NCBI GenBank assembly: GCA_020851455.1
Contig: JADZCT010000021.1
Location: forward strand, 1 to 42,838
Direction: 5' to 3'
Source of the DNA: Gemmatimonadaceae bacterium
Lineage (GTDB): Bacteria; Gemmatimonadota; Gemmatimonadetes; Gemmatimonadales; Gemmatimonadaceae
DNA length: 42,838 bases
In this document: positions 3,080 through 22,485 of the stretch, piece after piece
How positions within the stretch are numbered: the stretch's first letter is position 1
How the letters are laid out: each line of letters begins with the position of its first letter
The notes under the pieces: model-generated
What the model was told of the DNA's origin: nothing
What the model saw: the letters and a program-made list of their open reading frames with translations, nothing else
Databases searched by the model: none
Position numbers and translations under genes: made by a program

Positions 3080-4504
3080 ATGCCGTATCTCCAATACCGC
3101 GGGCAGCGCGTCACCTTAACGCAGGCCGTCCAGGTCATCGGCGCGTTCGACGGGGCAGCGCTCCGCATTCCCGGCGACGACCCGGCGGCGCGTGCCACGA
3201 TCCGGCTGGGCGCCGACGGCACCGGGATCATCAGCCGCGCCGACGCATCGTCGGAGGTGTCGGTGAATGGCGTGCAGTTGGGCGCCGAGCCATCGCCGCT
3301 GCTTCATGGCGACAAGGTCGAGCTCGGCGGCGAGCAGCTCCAGTACGGGGACGACGCACAGGGTGGCAGCACCCAGTTCATCAGCGCGGCGAACGTGGCA
3401 GCGCATCTTGGGGCCGCGAAGGGACCGCGGAAGGCCACGAGCGCCACGGGCGGCCGCCTGGTTTCGCTCGTGGACGGGCGGGAGTACACTATCGCTGACG
3501 CGGGCGCGAGCTTCGGTCGCGAGATCGGCAACGACATCGTCATCGCCTCTGCGGAGGTGTCGCGGCGGCACGCCGAGATAGTGCCTGCCGAGGGCGGGTA
3601 CGTACTGAAAGACCTCAGCACCAACGGCGTGCTGGTGAACGGCGTGCGCGTGGAGAAGGAGCAACTGCTCGGCCGCGCCGACGTGATCAGGATCGCCAAC
3701 GAGGAGTTTCGGTTCTACGCCGACAAGGCCAGGGATGTCGCGGCGGCGGTGGCACCCCCATCGGCGGGCGCGCAGAGCGCGCAGCCGGCCACCGCCGCGG
3801 CGGCTCCAGCGCAGGCCAGCCAACCCTCTGCGCCGGTTTCGCCAACCGCTCCGCTGCCGGAAGCGCCAACAGTGCCAAAGCCGATTCGTCCGTCAGCGGC
3901 GCGGGAACCGCTGGCGACGCTCGAAGTCGTGAACGAGGGCCCGGCCAAGGGCGAGAAGTACCAGATTTTCACCCCGCTCGCGAACGTCGGTCGCGGGGCG
4001 CACAACGACGTGGTGATTGCGGACGACAGCGTCTCCGACTCGCACGCCAAGATCCTTCACCGGGACGGGCACTGGTTCATCGAGGATCAGGGCTCGACGA
4101 ACGGCACGTACATCGGCGGGAACCGCGTGCACGGCGAGCAGCAGGTCGTTGGCGCGCCGGACGTCCGCTTCGGGAACGTCAAGCTCACCTTCCGTCCTTC
4201 GGCCGCTACGGCTGACACCGGGGGCAGCACGCGCGCGATAGCATCGGTGAACGCCGAGCAGGCGCGCCGGATGTCAACGCACGGCGCTCCTGCCGCCGGG
4301 CCCGCCCCGGCTGGCTCCGGGCGGCACAGCCAGGGGGGCGGCGCCGTGGCGCATCCGGCGCACAAGCCAGAGAAACCCGTGGTCATCCCCGAAGCGGATC
4401 TGCCGGCGAAGAAGGGCTGCGCCACGGCGATCGCATTCGTGCTGGCAACCGCGGCCATGGCGGGCGCGGGGATGCTGGCCATCCTGTTCAGGGTCGGGGG
4501 CTGA
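3080..4504 (+). CDS. multi-FHA-domain protein with C-terminal membrane anchor
   Basis: FHA domains bind phosphothreonine peptides. FHA2 (about residues 126-215) has the full signature: G146-R147, S161-R-R-H164 and the T-N182-G turn. FHA3 (about 278-373) has G304-R305, S321-H322 and TN341G. Residues 10-95 look like a third, degenerate FHA domain (VNG turn, but no GR or SxxH). An Ala/Pro-rich linker spans 221-275 and a Ser/Gly/Pro-rich one 375-440. One hydrophobic helix (about 448-470) ends the chain, so the protein is probably tail-anchored with the FHA domains in the cytoplasm. The gene lies 3 bases before a PP2C phosphatase, so it is likely an adaptor in Ser/Thr phospho-signalling. No kinase gene is in the window. 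Confidence 0.85.
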
Positions 4505-4507
4505 GCG

Positions 4508-5272
4508 ATGCAGATTGCCATCGGCGCCCGGTCGGACGTGGGGATGGTTCGCTCCGGCAACGAAGACAACTTCTTCGCAGATGCGGATGAGCGCCGCGGG
4601 CTATTCGTCGTGGCCGACGGCATGGGGGGGCACGCCGCGGGCGAGGTTGCGAGCGAGATGGCGGTGCAGATCGTATCGCGCAACCTGCTGCCGATCGAGA
4701 CGCTGCTGGATGCGGCGGCGGACGAACGGATGGCCACTTCGATCCAGGAGGCCAACCGCGCCATCTACGACCGGATGCTTGCCGAGGTGGACAAGCAGGG
4801 GATGGGCACGACGGCATCGGTGCTCGTGGTCGCGGGGGACCGGTTCCTCATCGGGCAGGTCGGCGACTCCCGGGTGTACCTCCTTCGCGACGGAGCACTG
4901 CAGCAGGTCACGAAGGACCACTCTTACGTGCAGGAGCAGGTTGACGCGGGCCGGCTGACGCCTGAGCAGGCGCGCTACCACCCGTACAGCAACGTGATCA
5001 CGCGGTGCGTGGGGGCGAGCGAAGGGGTCGAGGTGGACCTGTACCGCGGCGATGTGAAGCCGGGCGATGTATTCCTCCTGGCGAGTGACGGGCTCACGGG
5101 CATGGTGGACGACCGGCGGCTGCAGCAGATCCTGCTGGCGAGGTCGAGCCCGGGCCGCATCGTTGACGCGCTGATCGCCGAGGCGAACGGACGCGGCGGG
5201 CTGGACAACATTACGGCAATCGTCGTGCAGGTCGGCTCGGTGTCGGTGTCGGGCGAGGGCGCGACGGCCTGA
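4508..5272 (+). CDS. PP2C-family serine/threonine phosphatase
   Basis: This is a Mn/Mg-dependent protein phosphatase of the bacterial Stp/PrpC type, 254 residues long and made only of the catalytic domain. The metal-site motifs are all present: SGNED with D20, ADGMGGH with D37-G38, GDSR (120-122), LASDG with D194 and GLDN with D233. There is no signal peptide or membrane segment, so it acts in the cytoplasm. It follows the FHA gene by 3 bases and overlaps the next ORF (TGATG), so the three form one operon. The inferred role is to remove the Thr phosphorylation read by the FHA protein. Confidence 0.93.
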   Translation: MQIAIGARSDVGMVRSGNEDNFFADADERRGLFVVADGMGGHAAGEVASEMAVQIVSRNLLPIETLLDAAADERMATSIQEANRAIYDRMLAEVDKQGMGTTASVLVVAGDRFLIGQVGDSRVYLLRDGALQQVTKDHSYVQEQVDAGRLTPEQARYHPYSNVITRCVGASEGVEVDLYRGDVKPGDVFLLASDGLTGMVDDRRLQQILLARSSPGRIVDALIAEANGRGGLDNITAIVVQVGSVSVSGEGATA

Positions 5273-5517: not shown

Positions 5518-6738
5518 TCAGGGCTCCAGCGATGAGAGCAGGGCGTCGCGGTCAAGCGTGGTGCGCGTGCCGGTGAATACCCGGAGGCAGCGCGCGCTGG
5601 CGTAGAGCTCTCCGGCCAGGCGGGGCAGGTCAATTGCGCCCGCGAGGCCGGCCTGCGTGAGCCGACGCACCGTGCGATCCTTGCGCGCGACGAGCACGTC
5701 GAGCCCGAGCATCTGTGTCTTGGCGGGATAGTCGAGGAGTACCTCGTCTGCGGGGAGGCCAAGGCGCGCGGCGATGCGCCGCTCGGCGGCAGCCGTCCGG
5801 GTGCGGTCGTCGGCGATCCACTCGAGGTCGGCGTCCGGAAGGGCGGCCGCTGGCGCTTCGAACGCGCGCTTGAACAGGCGGCGGGTGCGCAGCCGCGCGA
5901 GCATGGGATCGCCACCGCCGAACTCGAGGGCGTTGAGCAGTCCTTCGTCGGTGAAGCTGCCGAGGCTGGCCATGCTGACCGCGCCGCGGGCGACCGCGCG
6001 CTCGACAATGCGCTTGTACATCGCCGTCGCGGAACGGCATGCGTGGTGCCAGTAGACGTTGCGGTACATCTGGTACTTGGCGAAGAGGAGGGTCTCGACG
6101 GCGGAAAGGCCCTTCTCGAGGATGCCGATGGACGATGTGCCGGTTGCGGGGTCGCGCAGCACGAGCATGGACTGGAGGAGGCGGTCTTCGTCAATCTCGC
6201 CGTAGGGGACGCCGCACATCCGGGCGTCGCGCTGCAGGTAGTCAATCTTGTCGAGGTCGAACGACCCGGAGATGAGCCCCTGGAGGGGAGACGCGCTTCG
6301 GCCCTGGATGAGGTCGGAGATGCGGCGGGGAGCGTCGGCGCCGATATCGGCCTGGAGGATGTCTGCGACTGCGCCGCTGGTGACGATCTGCTCCGCAAGC
6401 GTCTCGTGCAGCGGGGCGCCGATCTCCTCGAGTGCGTGCGAAAACGGGTAGTGGCCGACGTCGTGGAGGAGGGCGGCCGCCGCGATCACGGCCGGCTCAT
6501 CCGGAGGAACGGCGGCGAGCGCGCCGGCTTCGCGGAGCTTCGCAAGCGCTCGCCGCGCGAGGTGGTACGCTCCCAGGGCGTGCTCGAACCGCGAGTGCGT
6601 GGCGCCCGGGTACACCAGGTGCGCGAGCCCGAGCTGCCGCACCTGCCGCAGCCGCTGGACGGCTGGCGTGTCGAGCAGCCTGGCGGCGGTGTCGTCAACC
6701 GCTATCGAGCCCCAGAGGGGGTCGCGGACATGGAGCAT
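5518..6738 (-). CDS. HD-domain phosphohydrolase (YdhJ/dNTPase-like)
   Basis: A 406-residue protein of the HD superfamily group that includes dGTPase/SAMHD1-like enzymes. The metal-binding residues are visible: H53 in HSRFEH, H92-D93 in LLHDVGHYPFSH, and D163 in the DLDKIDYLQRD segment. N-terminal DPLWGSI and TPAVQRLRQVRQLG are characteristic of the family. The ATG at 6738 starts the conserved region; upstream in-frame codons to 6798 encode no conserved sequence and lie in the divergent promoter gap. The substrate cannot be read from sequence; dNTP hydrolysis is the family expectation. The gene is convergent with the FHA/PP2C operon. Confidence 0.88.
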   Translation of the reverse strand: MLHVRDPLWGSIAVDDTAARLLDTPAVQRLRQVRQLGLAHLVYPGATHSRFEHALGAYHLARRALAKLREAGALAAVPPDEPAVIAAAALLHDVGHYPFSHALEEIGAPLHETLAEQIVTSGAVADILQADIGADAPRRISDLIQGRSASPLQGLISGSFDLDKIDYLQRDARMCGVPYGEIDEDRLLQSMLVLRDPATGTSSIGILEKGLSAVETLLFAKYQMYRNVYWHHACRSATAMYKRIVERAVARGAVSMASLGSFTDEGLLNALEFGGGDPMLARLRTRRLFKRAFEAPAAALPDADLEWIADDRTRTAAAERRIAARLGLPADEVLLDYPAKTQMLGLDVLVARKDRTVRRLTQAGLAGAIDLPRLAGELYASARCLRVFTGTRTTLDRDALLSSLEP

Positions 6739-6811
6739 GTGAGGGTGGGTGCGGTTGTGTGGAACCTCGCACCGTCTAAGTTCGCACCGCGGAGCCACGC
6801 GGACAACGCGC

Positions 6812-6817
6812 TATGCT
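6812..6817 (+). promoter_or_regulatory. -10-like element of a leaderless gene
   Basis: TATGCT ends exactly 6 bases before the asparaginase-like ATG at 6824, which would place the transcription start on the A of the ATG. There is no Shine-Dalgarno sequence. No good -35 is visible, so the call rests on hexamer position and on similar arrangements elsewhere in the window. Confidence 0.35.
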
Positions 6818-6823
6818 TAGTCC

Positions 6824-7308
6824 ATGCGAATCAGGCTGTTTGTCACCGGCGGCACCTTCGACAAGCAATACGACGAAGTGAACGGAGCGCTCGCGTTCGG
6901 CGAGACCCACGTGCCGCGGATGCTCGACCTTGGACGGTGCCGCGTTGAAGTCGCAACCGAGGTGCTGCTGCTGAAGGACAGTCTCGACCTTACCGCCACC
7001 GACCGCGCGGCAATTGTGAACGCGTGCAGGTCGTGCGCGGAGACACGCATCGTGATCACCCACGGCACCGACACGATGGTCGAGACGGCGCAGGCAATCG
7101 CGGCCGCGGTCACGGGCCGCACCGTCGTGCTCACGGGCGCGATGATTCCCTTTGCGTTCGGCAGTTCTGACGGGCTGTTCAACCTCGGCAGCGCGCTCTC
7201 GTTCGCGCAGGCGCTGCAGGCAGGCACGTACATAGCGATGAACGGCCGGTTCTTCCCGCACGACAACGTGAGGAAGAACCGGCCTCAGGGGGTGTTCGAG
7301 GCGATTCG

Positions 7309-7312
<4 letters not shown>
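6824..7312 (+). CDS. half-length asparaginase-like protein
   Basis: 162 residues matching only the N-terminal catalytic lobe of type I/II L-asparaginases, which are normally about 320-350 residues. The nucleophile motif TGGTFDK (T11) and HGTDTM (T82-D83) are intact, and K151 in RKNRP sits where the asparaginase catalytic Lys would fall. There is no C-terminal lobe and no signal peptide. The reading frame closes cleanly with no visible continuation downstream, so this looks like a genuine short family rather than a decayed gene. Its activity on asparagine is not assured. Its TAG stop overlaps the pckA stop on the other strand in the palindrome CTAG. Confidence 0.85.
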
Positions 7313-8928
<1,616 letters not shown>

Positions 8929-8977
8929 GTCGAGATCGGGATGGGGAAGGGGACTGTATTTAGCCGGCAGCGGGCGC

Positions 8978-11281
8978 CTAGTGCAGCGGAAGCTCTCCGC
9001 CAGTGCCGACCGGAACGTAAGTGCCGCTGGTGGTGCGCACGCGCCACTGCGCGTCAATCACCGCGACCGCCGCCATGTTGACGATATCCCGCACCTCGGC
9101 GGCCTGTTCGAGCACGTGCACGGGATACGCCATGCCGGCGAGGATCGGGCCAATGGCCGTGGCCCCGCCGAGTTTCGTGAGCAGCTTGTACGCGATGTTG
9201 CCCGCGCTCAGGTTCGGGAAGATGAGCACGTTCGCGTCCTGCGTGAGGAGGCTGAACGGGTACTCCGTCGCGAGGACGTCCGCGCTGAAGGCGGTGTCGG
9301 CCTGCATTTCGCCGTCCACCATGAGCGTGGGCCTGCGGGCCCGCACGATCCGCACCGCCTCGGCCATCTTCTCGGCTTCCGGATGCTTCACGGATCCGAA
9401 GTTCGAGAACGACAGCATCGCGATCCGCGGCACTTCGCCGAGGTTGGCCACGAGTCCGGCCGCGGAGATCGCGATCTGGGCTACCTGCTCGGCGGTGGGA
9501 TCAATGTTCACCGTGGTGTCGCCGCAGAAGATCACGCGCTTGTCGAAGGCGAGCATGTACACCCCGCTCGCCAGCTTCGTCACATGGTGCGCGCCGATGA
9601 CCTCGAGCGCGGGCCGGATCGTCTCGGGGTAGTGCTTGCCCAGGCCGCCGACGATGCCGTCGGCGTCGCCCGAGGCCACCATCACGCAGCCGAAGTAGAT
9701 GCCCCGGTACAGGCGCTGCTCGGCCTCTGCGAGAGAAAGCCCCTTGCGCTGGCGGCGCTCGAAGAGGAACTGCGCGTAGCGCTGCCGGTCGGGCGAGGTG
9801 GAGGGCTCCTCGATGCGTACGCCCTCGAGCGATACGCCAAGCTCCGCGGCGACCTCTCCGATGCGATCGCGGCGGCCGAGGATGATCGGGTGGGCGATCC
9901 CTTCGTCAACGAGGATCTGCGCTGCCTTCAGGACGCGCGGCTCCTCGCCTTCGGGGAAGACGATGCGTTTCGGGTCGTGCTGGGCTCGGCCGATGATGCT
10001 GCGCATGAATCCGCGCGCACGGCCGAGGCGGCTCTCGAGCTGGTCGCGGTAGCGCTCGAGGTCAATCATCTCGCGCGCCACTCCGCTGGCGACCGCGGCC
10101 CAGGCGACGGCCGGCGTCACCCAGAGAAGCGCCCTCGGATCGAACGGGAAGGGGATCAGGTAGTCTGGCCCGAAGTGCACGCTTGCCAGGCCGTAGCGCT
10201 GGGCCACGTCGTCCGGGACGTCTTCCCTGGCCAGCGCCGCGAGTGCGCGCGTTGCGGCCATCTTCATCTCCTCGTTGATCTCCGTCGCGCGCACGTCGAG
10301 CGCGCCGCGGAAGATGAACGGGAAGCCGAGCACGTTGTTCACCTGGTTGGGGAAGTCGCTGCGTCCCGTGGCGATGATCGCATCGCTGCGCACCGCCTTG
10401 ATCTCGTCCGGGAGGATCTCCGGCACCGGGTTGGCAAGCGCGAAGATGATCGGGCGCGGGCCCATGGAGGCGACCATCTCCCCGGTCATCGCGCCTGCGG
10501 CGGAGAGCCCCACGAAAACATCGGCGCCCTTCAGCGCGTCGGCGAGGGTTCTTGCTTCGGTCTTGACGGCGAAGCGGGCCTTGTACGGGTCCATGTGCTC
10601 GGTGCGGCCCTCGTAGATCGCGCCGGACCGATCGCACATGATGAGGTTCTCGCGCCGGACGCCGAGCCGGATGTAATGGCCCGCCGTGGAGATCGCGGCG
10701 GCTCCGGCGCCGGAGAACACGACCTTGACCTTGTCTATCTCCTTGCCGGTTACCTCGAGCGCGTTGAGCAGCGCGGCGCCCGAGATGATTGCCGTGCCGT
10801 GCTGGTCGTCGTGGAAGACGGGGATCTTCATCGTCTTCCGCAGCGTTTCCTCGATGTAGAAGCAGTCTGGCGCGCGGACGTCCTCGAGGTTGATCCCGCC
10901 GACGGTCGGTTCGAGCAGTTGGCAGAACCGGATGAGGTCGTCCGGGCTCTCCGAGCCGACCTCGAGGTCGAACACGTCAATGTCGGCGAACTGCTTGAAC
11001 AGGTTGCCCTTGCCTTCCATCACCGGCTTGCCCGCCTGCGCGCCGATGTTTCCGAGGCCGAGCACTGCGGTGCCGTTGGTGACCACGGCCACGAGGTTTC
11101 CCTTGGCCGTGTAGGTGTAGGCGTCTTCCGGGTGGTCCCTGATTTCCAGGCAGGGTTCCGCGACACCGGGGCTGTAGGCGAGGGAGAGGTCGCGTTGGTT
11201 GGCGAGTGGCTTCGTGGGGACGACGGCGATCTTGCCAGGGCGTCCGCTCGCGTGGTAGTCGAGCGCGTCTTCGCGTTTCAT
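8978..11281 (-). CDS. maeB: NADP-dependent malic enzyme with phosphotransacetylase-like C-terminal domain
   Basis: Oxidatively decarboxylates malate to pyruvate. At 767 residues it is the long MaeB type. The N-terminal malic domain has [24 protein letters not shown] and the [11 protein letters not shown] block. The NAD(P)-binding domain has a GAGAAA turn. From about residue 430 to the end there is a Pta-like domain ([26 protein letters not shown]), which in this family is regulatory rather than catalytic. The start ATG at 11281 is preceded by GGGGA 8 bases upstream, which rules out the longer frame to 11380. Next to pckA it completes the malate/oxaloacetate-to-PEP/pyruvate node. Confidence 0.95.
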
Positions 11282-19581: not shown

Positions 19582-20733
19582 CTACTTGAGCGCCTGCTCG
19601 AGGTCGGCGACGAGGTCGTCGGCGTCCTCGATGCCGATGGACATGCGGATGAACCCGTCCGGGACGCCGGCACGCGCCCTCTCCTCCGCCGACAACCGCG
19701 CGTGCGACGTGTACCGTGGCTCGCTCACCAGCGAGTCAACGCCGCCGAGGCTTGCGGCGTGAATGAAGAGCTTGAGGCGCCTCAGGAACCGCTCCGCTGC
19801 CCGCGCGCCGCCCTCGAGTTCTATGGCCAGCATGCCGCCGTACCCGTCGAGCATCCCGCGCGCCACCTCGTAGTCAGGATGGCTGGTGAGCCCCGGGTAG
19901 TGAACCTTGGAGATTTCCTTCCGTCCGGCGCACCATGCCGCGATGCGCATGGCGTTGTCGTTCTGGCGTCGCACGCGCACTTCGAGCGTCTTCAGCCCCC
20001 GTTCGAGGAGCCACGCCGCGAAGGGGTCGGGCGCCTGGCCCCAGAGAACCATCTTCTGGAGCACTTCCTGGATGTACGGCTCCGTCCCGGCGACAACCCC
20101 GCACATCGCGTCGTGGTGCCCGTTGAGGAACTTTGTCCCGGAGTGGATCACGACGTCGGCGCCGTGCTCGATCGGGCGCAGGTTCACGGGACTCGCGAAG
20201 GTCGAATCCACCACGAGGGCGATGCCGCTCTCCTTCGTCAGATAGGAAATCGGCCGCAGGTCTATCACGCGGCAGGTCGGGTTTACGGGCGTCTCCACGA
20301 AGAGGGCGCGCGTCTCGCGGCGGAGCGCTTTGCGCCACACGCGGGGCTCGAAGGGATCCACGAGCGTCACCGCGATGCCGAAGCGCGTAAACTCCTCCTC
20401 CAGCAGGCGCTTGGAGCCGCCGTAGATGTGGCCGCTCGCCACGAGGTGATCGCCGGGCCGGAGGAGGGCAAGCATGGCGCACGCCGTGGCACCCATTCCG
20501 CTGGCGAGCACCAGCGCGGCCTCGGCACCCTCGATCAACGCCATGCGCTTCTGCACGCGCTGGAGCGTGGGCGTGTTCCCGTACCGGTTGTACATGAGCC
20601 CGGCTTCCGTGCCGATTTCCTGCACGAAGTTCACGGACTGCACGAGGGGCGGGGCAACCGGGTCGCCGGGATACCGGATGCCTTCGCCGCCGTGGATGGC
20701 GGTGGTGGCGATTGCGGGCTTCTTCCGGGTCAT
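19582..20733 (-). CDS. PLP-dependent cystathionine gamma-synthase/lyase family enzyme
   Basis: 383 residues, a complete Cys/Met metabolism PLP enzyme (trans-sulfuration family). YNRYGNTPT near the start binds PLP phosphate from the neighbouring subunit. ASGMGA (78-83), VDSTFASP (175-182) and HSGTKFLNGH with the Schiff-base K201 complete the active site. The family covers cystathionine gamma-synthase, cystathionine lyases, methionine gamma-lyase and O-acetylhomoserine sulfhydrylase; the sequence alone does not separate them safely. The start overlaps the stop of the preceding small gene (ATGA). Confidence 0.9.
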   Translation of the reverse strand: MTRKKPAIATTAIHGGEGIRYPGDPVAPPLVQSVNFVQEIGTEAGLMYNRYGNTPTLQRVQKRMALIEGAEAALVLASGMGATACAMLALLRPGDHLVASGHIYGGSKRLLEEEFTRFGIAVTLVDPFEPRVWRKALRRETRALFVETPVNPTCRVIDLRPISYLTKESGIALVVDSTFASPVNLRPIEHGADVVIHSGTKFLNGHHDAMCGVVAGTEPYIQEVLQKMVLWGQAPDPFAAWLLERGLKTLEVRVRRQNDNAMRIAAWCAGRKEISKVHYPGLTSHPDYEVARGMLDGYGGMLAIELEGGARAAERFLRRLKLFIHAASLGGVDSLVSEPRYTSHARLSAEERARAGVPDGFIRMSIGIEDADDLVADLEQALK

Positions 20734-21056
20734 CTGCCTCGTCGTGGTTTCGGGCCGGGGTTGTCACTAATGATGTCGCGGTCGGCCGTCACGCGCACTA
20801 TCCGGACAACTTCCGACGTGGCGAGCCCGGCTACGTCGCGCACGACCACCTCGCCGCGCGGGAGCGAGTCGTCCAGCCGGATGACCGCCAGGTCATGCCG
20901 CCGCGGGCCGTACACCCATGCCATCTCGCCTTCCGAAATGCCCCGCAGGTGCGCTTCCCACGGCGCCATCATGACGAGGGGGCCGCGATCCGGGTCACCA
21001 CGCTTCGTTGCGACGAATCCCGTTACCTGCAGCGGCGGATTGTACAACTCCGCCAT
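20730..21056 (-). CDS. small protein with a double-psi beta-barrel-like pattern
   Basis: 108 residues. The core (about 8-92) has the rhythm of the molybdopterin-dinucleotide-binding or aspartate-decarboxylase-like barrel: hydrophobic strands, then GISEGEMAWVYGPRR, a second strand, LPRGEVVVRD, and a final strand. No cofactor residues can be identified and no enzyme domain is attached. The C-terminal tail is basic (KPRRGR). Both ends are coupled by 4-base overlaps, to the STAS/winged-helix gene before it and the PLP enzyme after it. I do not recognise the family; the fold is inferred from pattern only. Confidence 0.6.
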   Translation of the reverse strand: MAELYNPPLQVTGFVATKRGDPDRGPLVMMAPWEAHLRGISEGEMAWVYGPRRHDLAVIRLDDSLPRGEVVVRDVAGLATSEVVRIVRVTADRDIISDNPGPKPRRGR

Positions 21057-21601
21057 CACGCCACCACGCCGATCGGGGCGTAGGTGAAGCCGTCCCGGCG
21101 GAGGAGCCGTCGGGTGTAGAGGGCTTGCAGCACCAGGAGCACATCGGCGGCATCGCGCGCCACGTCCCGCGCCACCTCCTCGGCGGCTGCCGGTCCGCGG
21201 GCGTGCACGCACTGCCACACCGTGCGCTCGTCGTCGCTCACTGAGCCCACCAGGCGCGCGGCGCCGTCCGCGAAGTGAACCACCAGCGCGAGCCCGTGGT
21301 GCACGGCGACATCCTCGATCGCCTCGAGGTGCGCGTCCGTGATGCCGTGGAACACCAGCGACGACGCGTCGTCGCCGCGCCGCTCCAGGTCGAGCAGGAG
21401 CTGGGCGACCACTTCGTCGGCGCACGAGTAGTCCATCATCACGATGTGCGTGAAGTCGAGCGTCACCACGGTGCCGGAGGCTACAGCGGCGATCTCTTCC
21501 TCGATGCACTTGCGCACCGCTGCGCCCGTCGTGCGCGTGACGAGGTTCGCGTACGGGTGGTTCGCCGAATGGCGGAGAACCGCCCCGACGTCAATGCGCA
21601 T
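21056..21601 (-). CDS. STAS-like domain protein with winged-helix-like C-terminus
   Basis: 181 residues. Residues about 40-112 look like a STAS domain or the STAS-like DUF4325 type: a beta strand VTLDF, a helix start at MMDYSCADEVV, then LVFHG and LALVVHFAD strands. S59 in MDYSC sits where SpoIIAA-type anti-anti-sigma factors have their phosphorylated Ser (MDSSG). Residues about 125-178 resemble a winged helix (VWQCVHARG, helix, VLLVLQALYTRRLL, wing DGFTYAPI). The start overlaps the ATPase stop (ATGA). The likely role is the switchable partner of the adjacent ATPase; the winged helix might bind DNA or protein. Confidence 0.7.
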   Translation of the reverse strand: MRIDVGAVLRHSANHPYANLVTRTTGAAVRKCIEEEIAAVASGTVVTLDFTHIVMMDYSCADEVVAQLLLDLERRGDDASSLVFHGITDAHLEAIEDVAVHHGLALVVHFADGAARLVGSVSDDERTVWQCVHARGPAAAEEVARDVARDAADVLLVLQALYTRRLLRRDGFTYAPIGVVA

Positions 21602-22485
21602 CACGCGACCTTCTCGGGGATCGTGATCTGCAACTGCGCGCCGGGAAACGGGGCGAGGTTTTCGCGGAGCGCGAGGTCGTCGTCCCACTTCGGGACCACG
21701 GCAACGCGCGCCGTGCCGCTGCGCACTGACAGCTTGCCTTCCCATCGGTGCACGTACCCCCTGATCCCCTTCAGCCCCTGGCCGCGCCCCGCCTCGGGGA
21801 AGCGGCTCACGCCGTTGATCACCGCGGCTTCCAGCGCGATCCTGTCGTCCCACCTGTCGGTGAGCGGGCGGCGGGGGCTGGACTCGAGGGATCGGCGAAA
21901 GCCCACGCCGGCGTCGCACACCGCGATCACAACCGCAAGACGACCATGCAGCCGCTCACGATACTTGTACACCTGCACCGCCAGCCAACCGCCGCGCCCG
22001 GCGTGCTCGACGATGTTCTGGCAGGCCTCCGAGAGCGTCATCGTAAAGCCCATCGTGGCGCGCGACACCAGGTGCAGCTTCTCGGTGAGTATCTCGGTTG
22101 CCTTGTCCCTGATCCGCTCGACGACGGTATGCACGTCGTCGCTCTTCACGATCGGCGTGATCTCGAGGAGATAGCCGCTCTCTTTCGGAGCCCTCTGGCG
22201 TGGAACCGCGCCCTGGATGTCGTAGAGATCTTCGGCGTGCGCGAAGAAGCCCACGCGGGCCCAGTAAGACGACTTGTCCTGGTCTTCGGGCGGGAGCAGC
22301 GTCGGCTTCGCCGTGCGCGTCTGCGCAAGCGTGAGGAGCGCGGTCAGGCCGTAGGGAGACGCGAAGGTGCAGTGCCTCGCGTCCACGATCACCCTGGCGT
22401 CAGTCGGCTGCTCCGCCATCTGGTCGAGCACCTGCTCGAACGACAGGTCGTTCAGGCTCGACGGAACGGTGATCACGGCGGTCAC
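21601..22485 (-). CDS. STAS-like plus HATPase protein (anti-sigma-kinase-like)
   Basis: 294 residues from a GTG that overlaps the PfkB-gene stop (GTGA). The N-terminal 1-110 look STAS-like (strand RVIVDARHC, then FASPYGLTALLTLA). The C-terminal half is a GHKL/HATPase fold with all ATP motifs: N-box E153-xxx-N157 (SEACQNIVEH), G1 box D191AGVG and G2 box G233RGQGLKG. There is no dimerisation/phospho-His domain and no membrane segment, so this is not an ordinary sensor kinase. It resembles SpoIIAB/RsbW-type Ser kinases that phosphorylate STAS partners. The coupled downstream STAS protein is the obvious substrate candidate. Confidence 0.75.
   Translation of the reverse strand: MTAVITVPSSLNDLSFEQVLDQMAEQPTDARVIVDARHCTFASPYGLTALLTLAQTRTAKPTLLPPEDQDKSSYWARVGFFAHAEDLYDIQGAVPRQRAPKESGYLLEITPIVKSDDVHTVVERIRDKATEILTEKLHLVSRATMGFTMTLSEACQNIVEHAGRGGWLAVQVYKYRERLHGRLAVVIAVCDAGVGFRRSLESSPRRPLTDRWDDRIALEAAVINGVSRFPEAGRGQGLKGIRGYVHRWEGKLSVRSGTARVAVVPKWDDDLALRENLAPFPGAQLQITIPEKVA

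Follow-up and report, generated by a model that had tools for sequence, protein, structure and literature searches.

The closest described systems to the locus analyzed here are CapK/CapS and VapKSC. The CapK/CapS pair, published in 2026, regulates anti-phage operons (Chambers et al., EMBO J 2026, PMC13373217). CapK, with the domain order HTH-STAS-GHKL, phosphorylates CapS, a STAS-wHTH repressor, on Ser54, and the phosphorylated CapS dimer dissociates and leaves the DNA (PMC13373217). Activation of CapK by ssDNA runs through Trp68, the N-terminal HTH of CapK was not needed in the published assay, and CapK/CapS lie upstream of an immune operon in 348 of 443 published cases (PMC13373217). In VapKSC, the STAS protein VapS sequesters VapC, and the ssDNA-binding aromatic residue of VapK, Phe54, is the counterpart of CapK Trp68 (PMC13373217). 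The pairs SpoIIAB/SpoIIAA and RsbW/RsbV likewise combine a GHKL serine kinase with a STAS substrate whose serine stands at the start of a helix; in these pairs, however, the kinase has no fused STAS domain, the antagonist has no winged helix, and the target is a sigma factor.

We analyzed a stretch of 42,838 nucleotides from a Gemmatimonadaceae bacterium (contig JADZCT010000021.1), hereafter the window. A preliminary description of this DNA had proposed a sigma-free partner-switching system made of three genes, here called P1, P2 and P3. A search of a literature library found no paper on the P1/P2 pair in Gemmatimonadota.

Locus layout and the P1 and P2 proteins

All three open reading frames were confirmed on the minus strand, where the gene order is PfkB, P1, P2, P3, a Cys/Met metabolism enzyme, FtsE and FtsX (Table 1); the neighbors at the locus comprise LepA, ROK, PfkB, the Cys/Met metabolism enzyme, FtsE and FtsX. 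The 4-base overlaps reported earlier for P1-P2 and P2-P3 hold when the GTG starts are used. With the in-frame ATG that directly follows each GTG, the overlap is 1 base (TGATG). A further 4-base overlap, between PfkB and P1 (GTGA, 22485-22482), had been missed. Because the P1 and P2 genes overlap, there is no room for an operator between them, unlike in capKS.

Table 1. Features of the P1/P2 locus in window coordinates
Feature	Position	Strand	Evidence
PfkB-family sugar kinase, conserved operon neighbor of P1	22482..23474	-	PfkB E 6e-9
P1: STAS + GHKL ATPase/kinase, CapK-like without N-terminal HTH	21601..22485	-	Pfam, alignment, hhalign
P2: STAS + C-terminal winged helix, CapS-like, presumed P1 substrate	21056..21604	-	Pfam, model, hhalign
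Ser59 codon of P2 (numbered from ATG), in D-Y-S-C-A-D-E; presumed phospho-acceptor, equivalent of CapS Ser54	21425..21427	-	
P3: small double-psi-barrel-like protein, lineage-specific neighbor	20730..21059	-	sub-threshold Molydop_binding match

P1 (294 aa) had been read as a STAS-like domain fused to a GHKL ATPase, and the alignment bears this out. The N box (LSEACQNIVEHA, with E153 and N157), the G1 box (DAGVGF, with D191) and the G2 box (GRGQGL, G233-G237) are intact in 42/42 aligned sequences, their residues being invariant or nearly so. In Pfam searches, HATPase_c was matched by 23/23 members of the P1 family and STAS_2 by 4/23 (best E 1.2e-5). The STAS domain of P1 carries no phospho-acceptor serine, the position reading SPYG or DPNG in the aligned sequences. 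Structure predictions used sequences from the window and related loci, in alignments of four rows; for P1 the resulting model was of low confidence (pLDDT 47) and too poor for a structure search, so the fold of the P1 STAS half rests on homology. In four genomes (G252, G041, G207 and G042), the P1 gene contains a single in-frame stop codon (TGA or TAG), for which the start-codon region, sequencing error and decay are all candidate causes. When viral contigs were scanned with the P1 profile, no relative was found. The 1750-position DrmA model of PADLOC matches the GHKL part of P1 (residues 100-264, E 1.2e-10) and, weakly, CapK, which probably reflects a shared ATPase-like stretch.

The second product, P2 (182 aa), had been described as a STAS-like domain with a winged-helix-like tail, and its model gives both. 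In the model, the STAS part has a beta/alpha topology in which Ser59 begins the helix 59-75; residues 120-182 form a winged helix that is predicted with confidence (pLDDT 94-96 for most of this domain; structure-search Z 11). The match of P2 to Pfam STAS_2 was weak (E 0.0014). Since winged-helix matches filled the Foldseek list, in which the one STAS-bearing chain, SLC26A11, ranked 31, we argue for the STAS fold of P2 from profile comparison, topology and homology to CapS. DUF4325 (PF14213), a group of STAS-like proteins, was rejected as the family name: only 1/22 P2 members matched it, weakly (E 0.0079), and the P2 of the window gave no match.

Ser59, which had been placed at the position of the SpoIIAA phosphoserine, is invariant in 43/43 aligned sequences, and the surrounding D-x-SCAD motif is present at 93/93 loci. 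Its counterparts in the alignments are Ser54 of CapS and, in the classical STAS protein of the genome, the serine of the DSSG motif.

P1 and P2 are inherited vertically in nearly the whole class. P1 is present in 238 of 249 genomes of the phylum and P2 in 141 of 149 genomes of the class, and the named related records are Gemmatimonadetes; outside the class, P1 is absent from all six sampled members of group f11. The two genes are adjacent in 41/43 distinct loci. No homologue lacks the serine, and genomes without P2 also lack P1, bar fragmentary cases (G091, G184). Both of these results speak for the preliminary description. This conservation of the pair and of the setting of Ser59 far exceeds chance. 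In some genomes there is a second match, diverged and P1- or P2-like, as at G010:C4:199685-200176 and G032:C93:7763-7966 and in the second P1 matches of G124, G202, G010 and others; these additional matches are perhaps mobile capKS or vapKSC loci.

The third product fared less well. A match of P3 to the molybdopterin-dinucleotide-binding domain, a double-psi barrel, does exist, as the preliminary description would lead one to expect, but it is weak and below the cut-off (E 6.9e-5). P3 was found in 13/13 loci of the window's own family and in 0/30 loci elsewhere. Because it is confined to one family, we do not regard P3 as a core part, and we rejected it as the effector, although the barrel protein had been suggested as a possible output.

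Comparison with CapK/CapS and VapKSC

CapK and CapS profiles were built around WP_001567866.1 and WP_001567865.1, respectively, with four relatives; the published CapS (WP_001567865.1) and its CapK neighbor (WP_001567866.1) were located on an Enterobacter plasmid. P1 aligned with the CapK profile end to end over 271 columns (hhalign prob 99, E 6e-18), and P2 aligned with the CapS profile through both domains over 149 columns (E 8e-8), these E-values being pairwise rather than database E-values. As a control, the genome's classical STAS and RsbW-like proteins gave probabilities of 1.2 and 3.7; these controls were single sequences rather than profiles, which makes them somewhat weaker than the test. 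In addition, phrog_3364 was matched by P1, by CapK and by a Nostoc homologue. At another place in the same genome (L082, G000:C120, about 210064-212166), a STAS protein (DSSGLG), an RsbW-like kinase and a SpoIIE-type phosphatase are encoded in a row beside the KsgA and Rex genes, with no adjacent sigma factor; they make up a classical module apart from P1/P2.

The pair in the window shares with CapK/CapS a STAS-GHKL kinase gene followed directly by a STAS-wHTH gene, and an invariant serine that occupies the equivalent position of a D-x-S-[C/F]-x-x-E motif. The notion of a sigma-free kinase with a STAS partner, in which a further STAS domain is fused to the ATPase, corresponds to the CapK/CapS architecture (PMC13373217), and no sigma factor is encoded nearby. 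It is true that an ATPase carrying its own STAS domain departs from the classical arrangement, but this was already known from CapK.

Several features set the two apart. CapK has an N-terminal HTH, whereas P1 starts with the first STAS strand. CapK/CapS are mobile and lie upstream of an immune operon, whereas P1/P2 are class-wide core genes in a housekeeping cluster; no immune operon adjoins P1/P2 at the locus. The winged helix of P2 is missing in some lineages, and the CapS DNA-contact residues N145, K151, G169 and G170 are not retained in P2. Finally, the site of the aromatic Trp68 of CapK is Ser10 in P1 and is aromatic in 0/42 aligned sequences; the adjacent position 11 is Phe in 7 of the 42. 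The loop after Tyr173, which in CapK contains Lys237/Lys239, is still basic in P1 and gains a mostly conserved Trp175. Thus, judging from these residues, the signal for P1 may be a polyanion or nucleic acid.

In VapK/VapS, as in P1/P2, a STAS-GHKL kinase without an N-terminal HTH is paired with a STAS substrate, and the layout of VapS is resembled by those P2 variants that lack the winged helix. VapS has a short C-terminal region, whereas the P2 of the window carries a full winged helix. VapKSC also includes a gene for the PIN-domain protein VapC, whereas the conserved neighbor of P1/P2 is PfkB; there is no PIN-domain VapC gene behind P2, where the next genes are those for P3 and the Cys/Met metabolism enzyme.

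A pair on a Nostoc linckia plasmid (AP018224.1; BAY80308.1/BAY80307.1) bridges the CapK/CapS and P1/P2 groups. It resembles P1/P2 in having an HTH-less STAS-GHKL protein followed by a STAS-wHTH protein, with an IDVSFLDE motif, but it lies on a conjugative plasmid upstream of an MBL/E1-E2-JAB immune operon. At positions 6004-11038 of this plasmid (L083), the capKS-like pair, unannotated as such, is followed by an MBL-fold protein and an E2-E1-JAB fusion.

P1/P2 are thus not categorically new, because CapK/CapS are of the same kind. Since we looked for the N-terminal HTH and the immune operon and found neither, the pair should not be classed under capKS; it represents a new variant within the CapK/CapS kind, non-immune and present class-wide.

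Proposed switch and its output

We think it probable that P1 and P2 work together like CapK and CapS, as a kinase/STAS switch that is sigma-free. By analogy with that system, unphosphorylated P2 would dimerize through its STAS domain and hold its target, which would be DNA for proteins that have the winged helix and perhaps a partner protein in lineages that have lost it. A signal at the STAS-GHKL groove of P1 would activate the kinase, P1 would phosphorylate Ser59 of P2, and the P2 dimer would then separate and release the target. This reading builds on the architecture, the homology to CapK/CapS, the conserved catalytic and acceptor residues and the co-inheritance of the two genes, as shown above, whereas phosphorylation, dimer dissociation and a transcriptional output are carried over from PMC13373217. 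The missing immune operon and operator space, the non-aromatic Trp68 site, the winged-helix losses, the unretained CapS DNA-contact residues and the poor P1 model count against it. A phosphatase would reset P2, possibly a Stp1-type PP2C encoded in the window or a SpoIIE-type enzyme encoded elsewhere in the genome. At 3080-5272 (plus strand), the window encodes an FHA-domain protein and then a PP2C phosphatase of the Stp1/IreP type that scores over the NCBIfam cut-off, and we regard the latter as a candidate Ser59 phosphatase.

The winged-helix protein itself had been suggested as the output, and this idea survives in part. Most P2 proteins keep a confident winged helix, as does the P2 of the window, but among 78 distinct P2 sequences the domain is lost or truncated in 9, leaving short-tailed proteins in at least two lineages that retain STAS and Ser59. 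The recognition helix has no conserved DNA-contact or polar residues except Arg-Arg at its end, and the domain has a mean net charge of -1.2. On account of this loss, the unconserved helix and the charge, DNA is weakened as a general output. The same observations, together with the better conservation of STAS than of the winged helix (0.58 vs 0.42), speak for another version of a CapKS-type switch, one that overlaps with the main reading: the conserved output would be protein-protein, with the P2 STAS domain sequestering an enzyme in the way VapS sequesters VapC (PMC13373217), phosphorylation releasing this partner, and the winged helix being secondary or degenerate. PfkB, encoded directly upstream of P1 in 39/43 distinct loci, mostly with a 4-base overlap, would be the first candidate partner. 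Nevertheless, the retention of a confidently modeled winged helix in most P2 proteins, and in the Nostoc pair likewise, counts against a purely protein-directed output, and PfkB is an imperfect fit, since more diverged copies of it persist in P1/P2-less genomes of f6 and f9, and P1/P2 are retained in two genomes that have no PfkB. Because each occurs alone in some genomes, we rejected the idea that PfkB strictly depends on the switch. Overall, we hold an output through a sequestered protein to be a tentative alternative, and rather unlikely.

Two further explanations appear much weaker. In classical partner switching, P1 would be an anti-sigma factor, P2 its antagonist, and the sigma factor would be encoded elsewhere. 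The domain classes are indeed those of SpoIIAB/SpoIIAA, with a GHKL kinase with intact N, G1 and G2 boxes and a STAS protein with an acceptor serine, and the genome has sigma-70 family proteins at other loci. However, no sigma factor lies beside P1/P2 in the window, the genome's four matches to the sigma-70 family all stay below the SigBFG cut-off, and P1/P2 match CapK/CapS rather than the genome's RsbV/RsbW-like module at another locus; we therefore judge this explanation very improbable. The alternative of a true CapKS or VapKSC locus, with a toxin or an anti-phage system under its control, draws on the homology to CapK/CapS and on the Nostoc pair beside its MBL/E1-E2-JAB operon. Against it stand the class-wide vertical inheritance of P1/P2 among LepA, ROK, PfkB, the Cys/Met metabolism enzyme and FtsEX, a sugar kinase as the conserved neighbor, and no adjacent PIN nuclease or immune operon, and we consider a dedicated immune role highly improbable.

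A probable class-wide switch in a housekeeping cluster

Because P1 and P2 lie in a housekeeping cluster in nearly all species of the class, they probably control something basic. A bolder possibility, which we regard as doubtful, is that an immune-type phospho-switch acts as a core housekeeping regulator of the whole class, its output having moved, in some of the class, from DNA to a protein, most simply PfkB. That a relative of CapK/CapS is kept almost class-wide, at a constant position among housekeeping genes, suggests that such switches have a role in ordinary physiology as well, perhaps as their original one. The P1/P2 locus is a clear place to seek the signal and the target of such a switch, and the lineages in which P2 has no winged helix offer a natural experiment on the function of the STAS domain alone.
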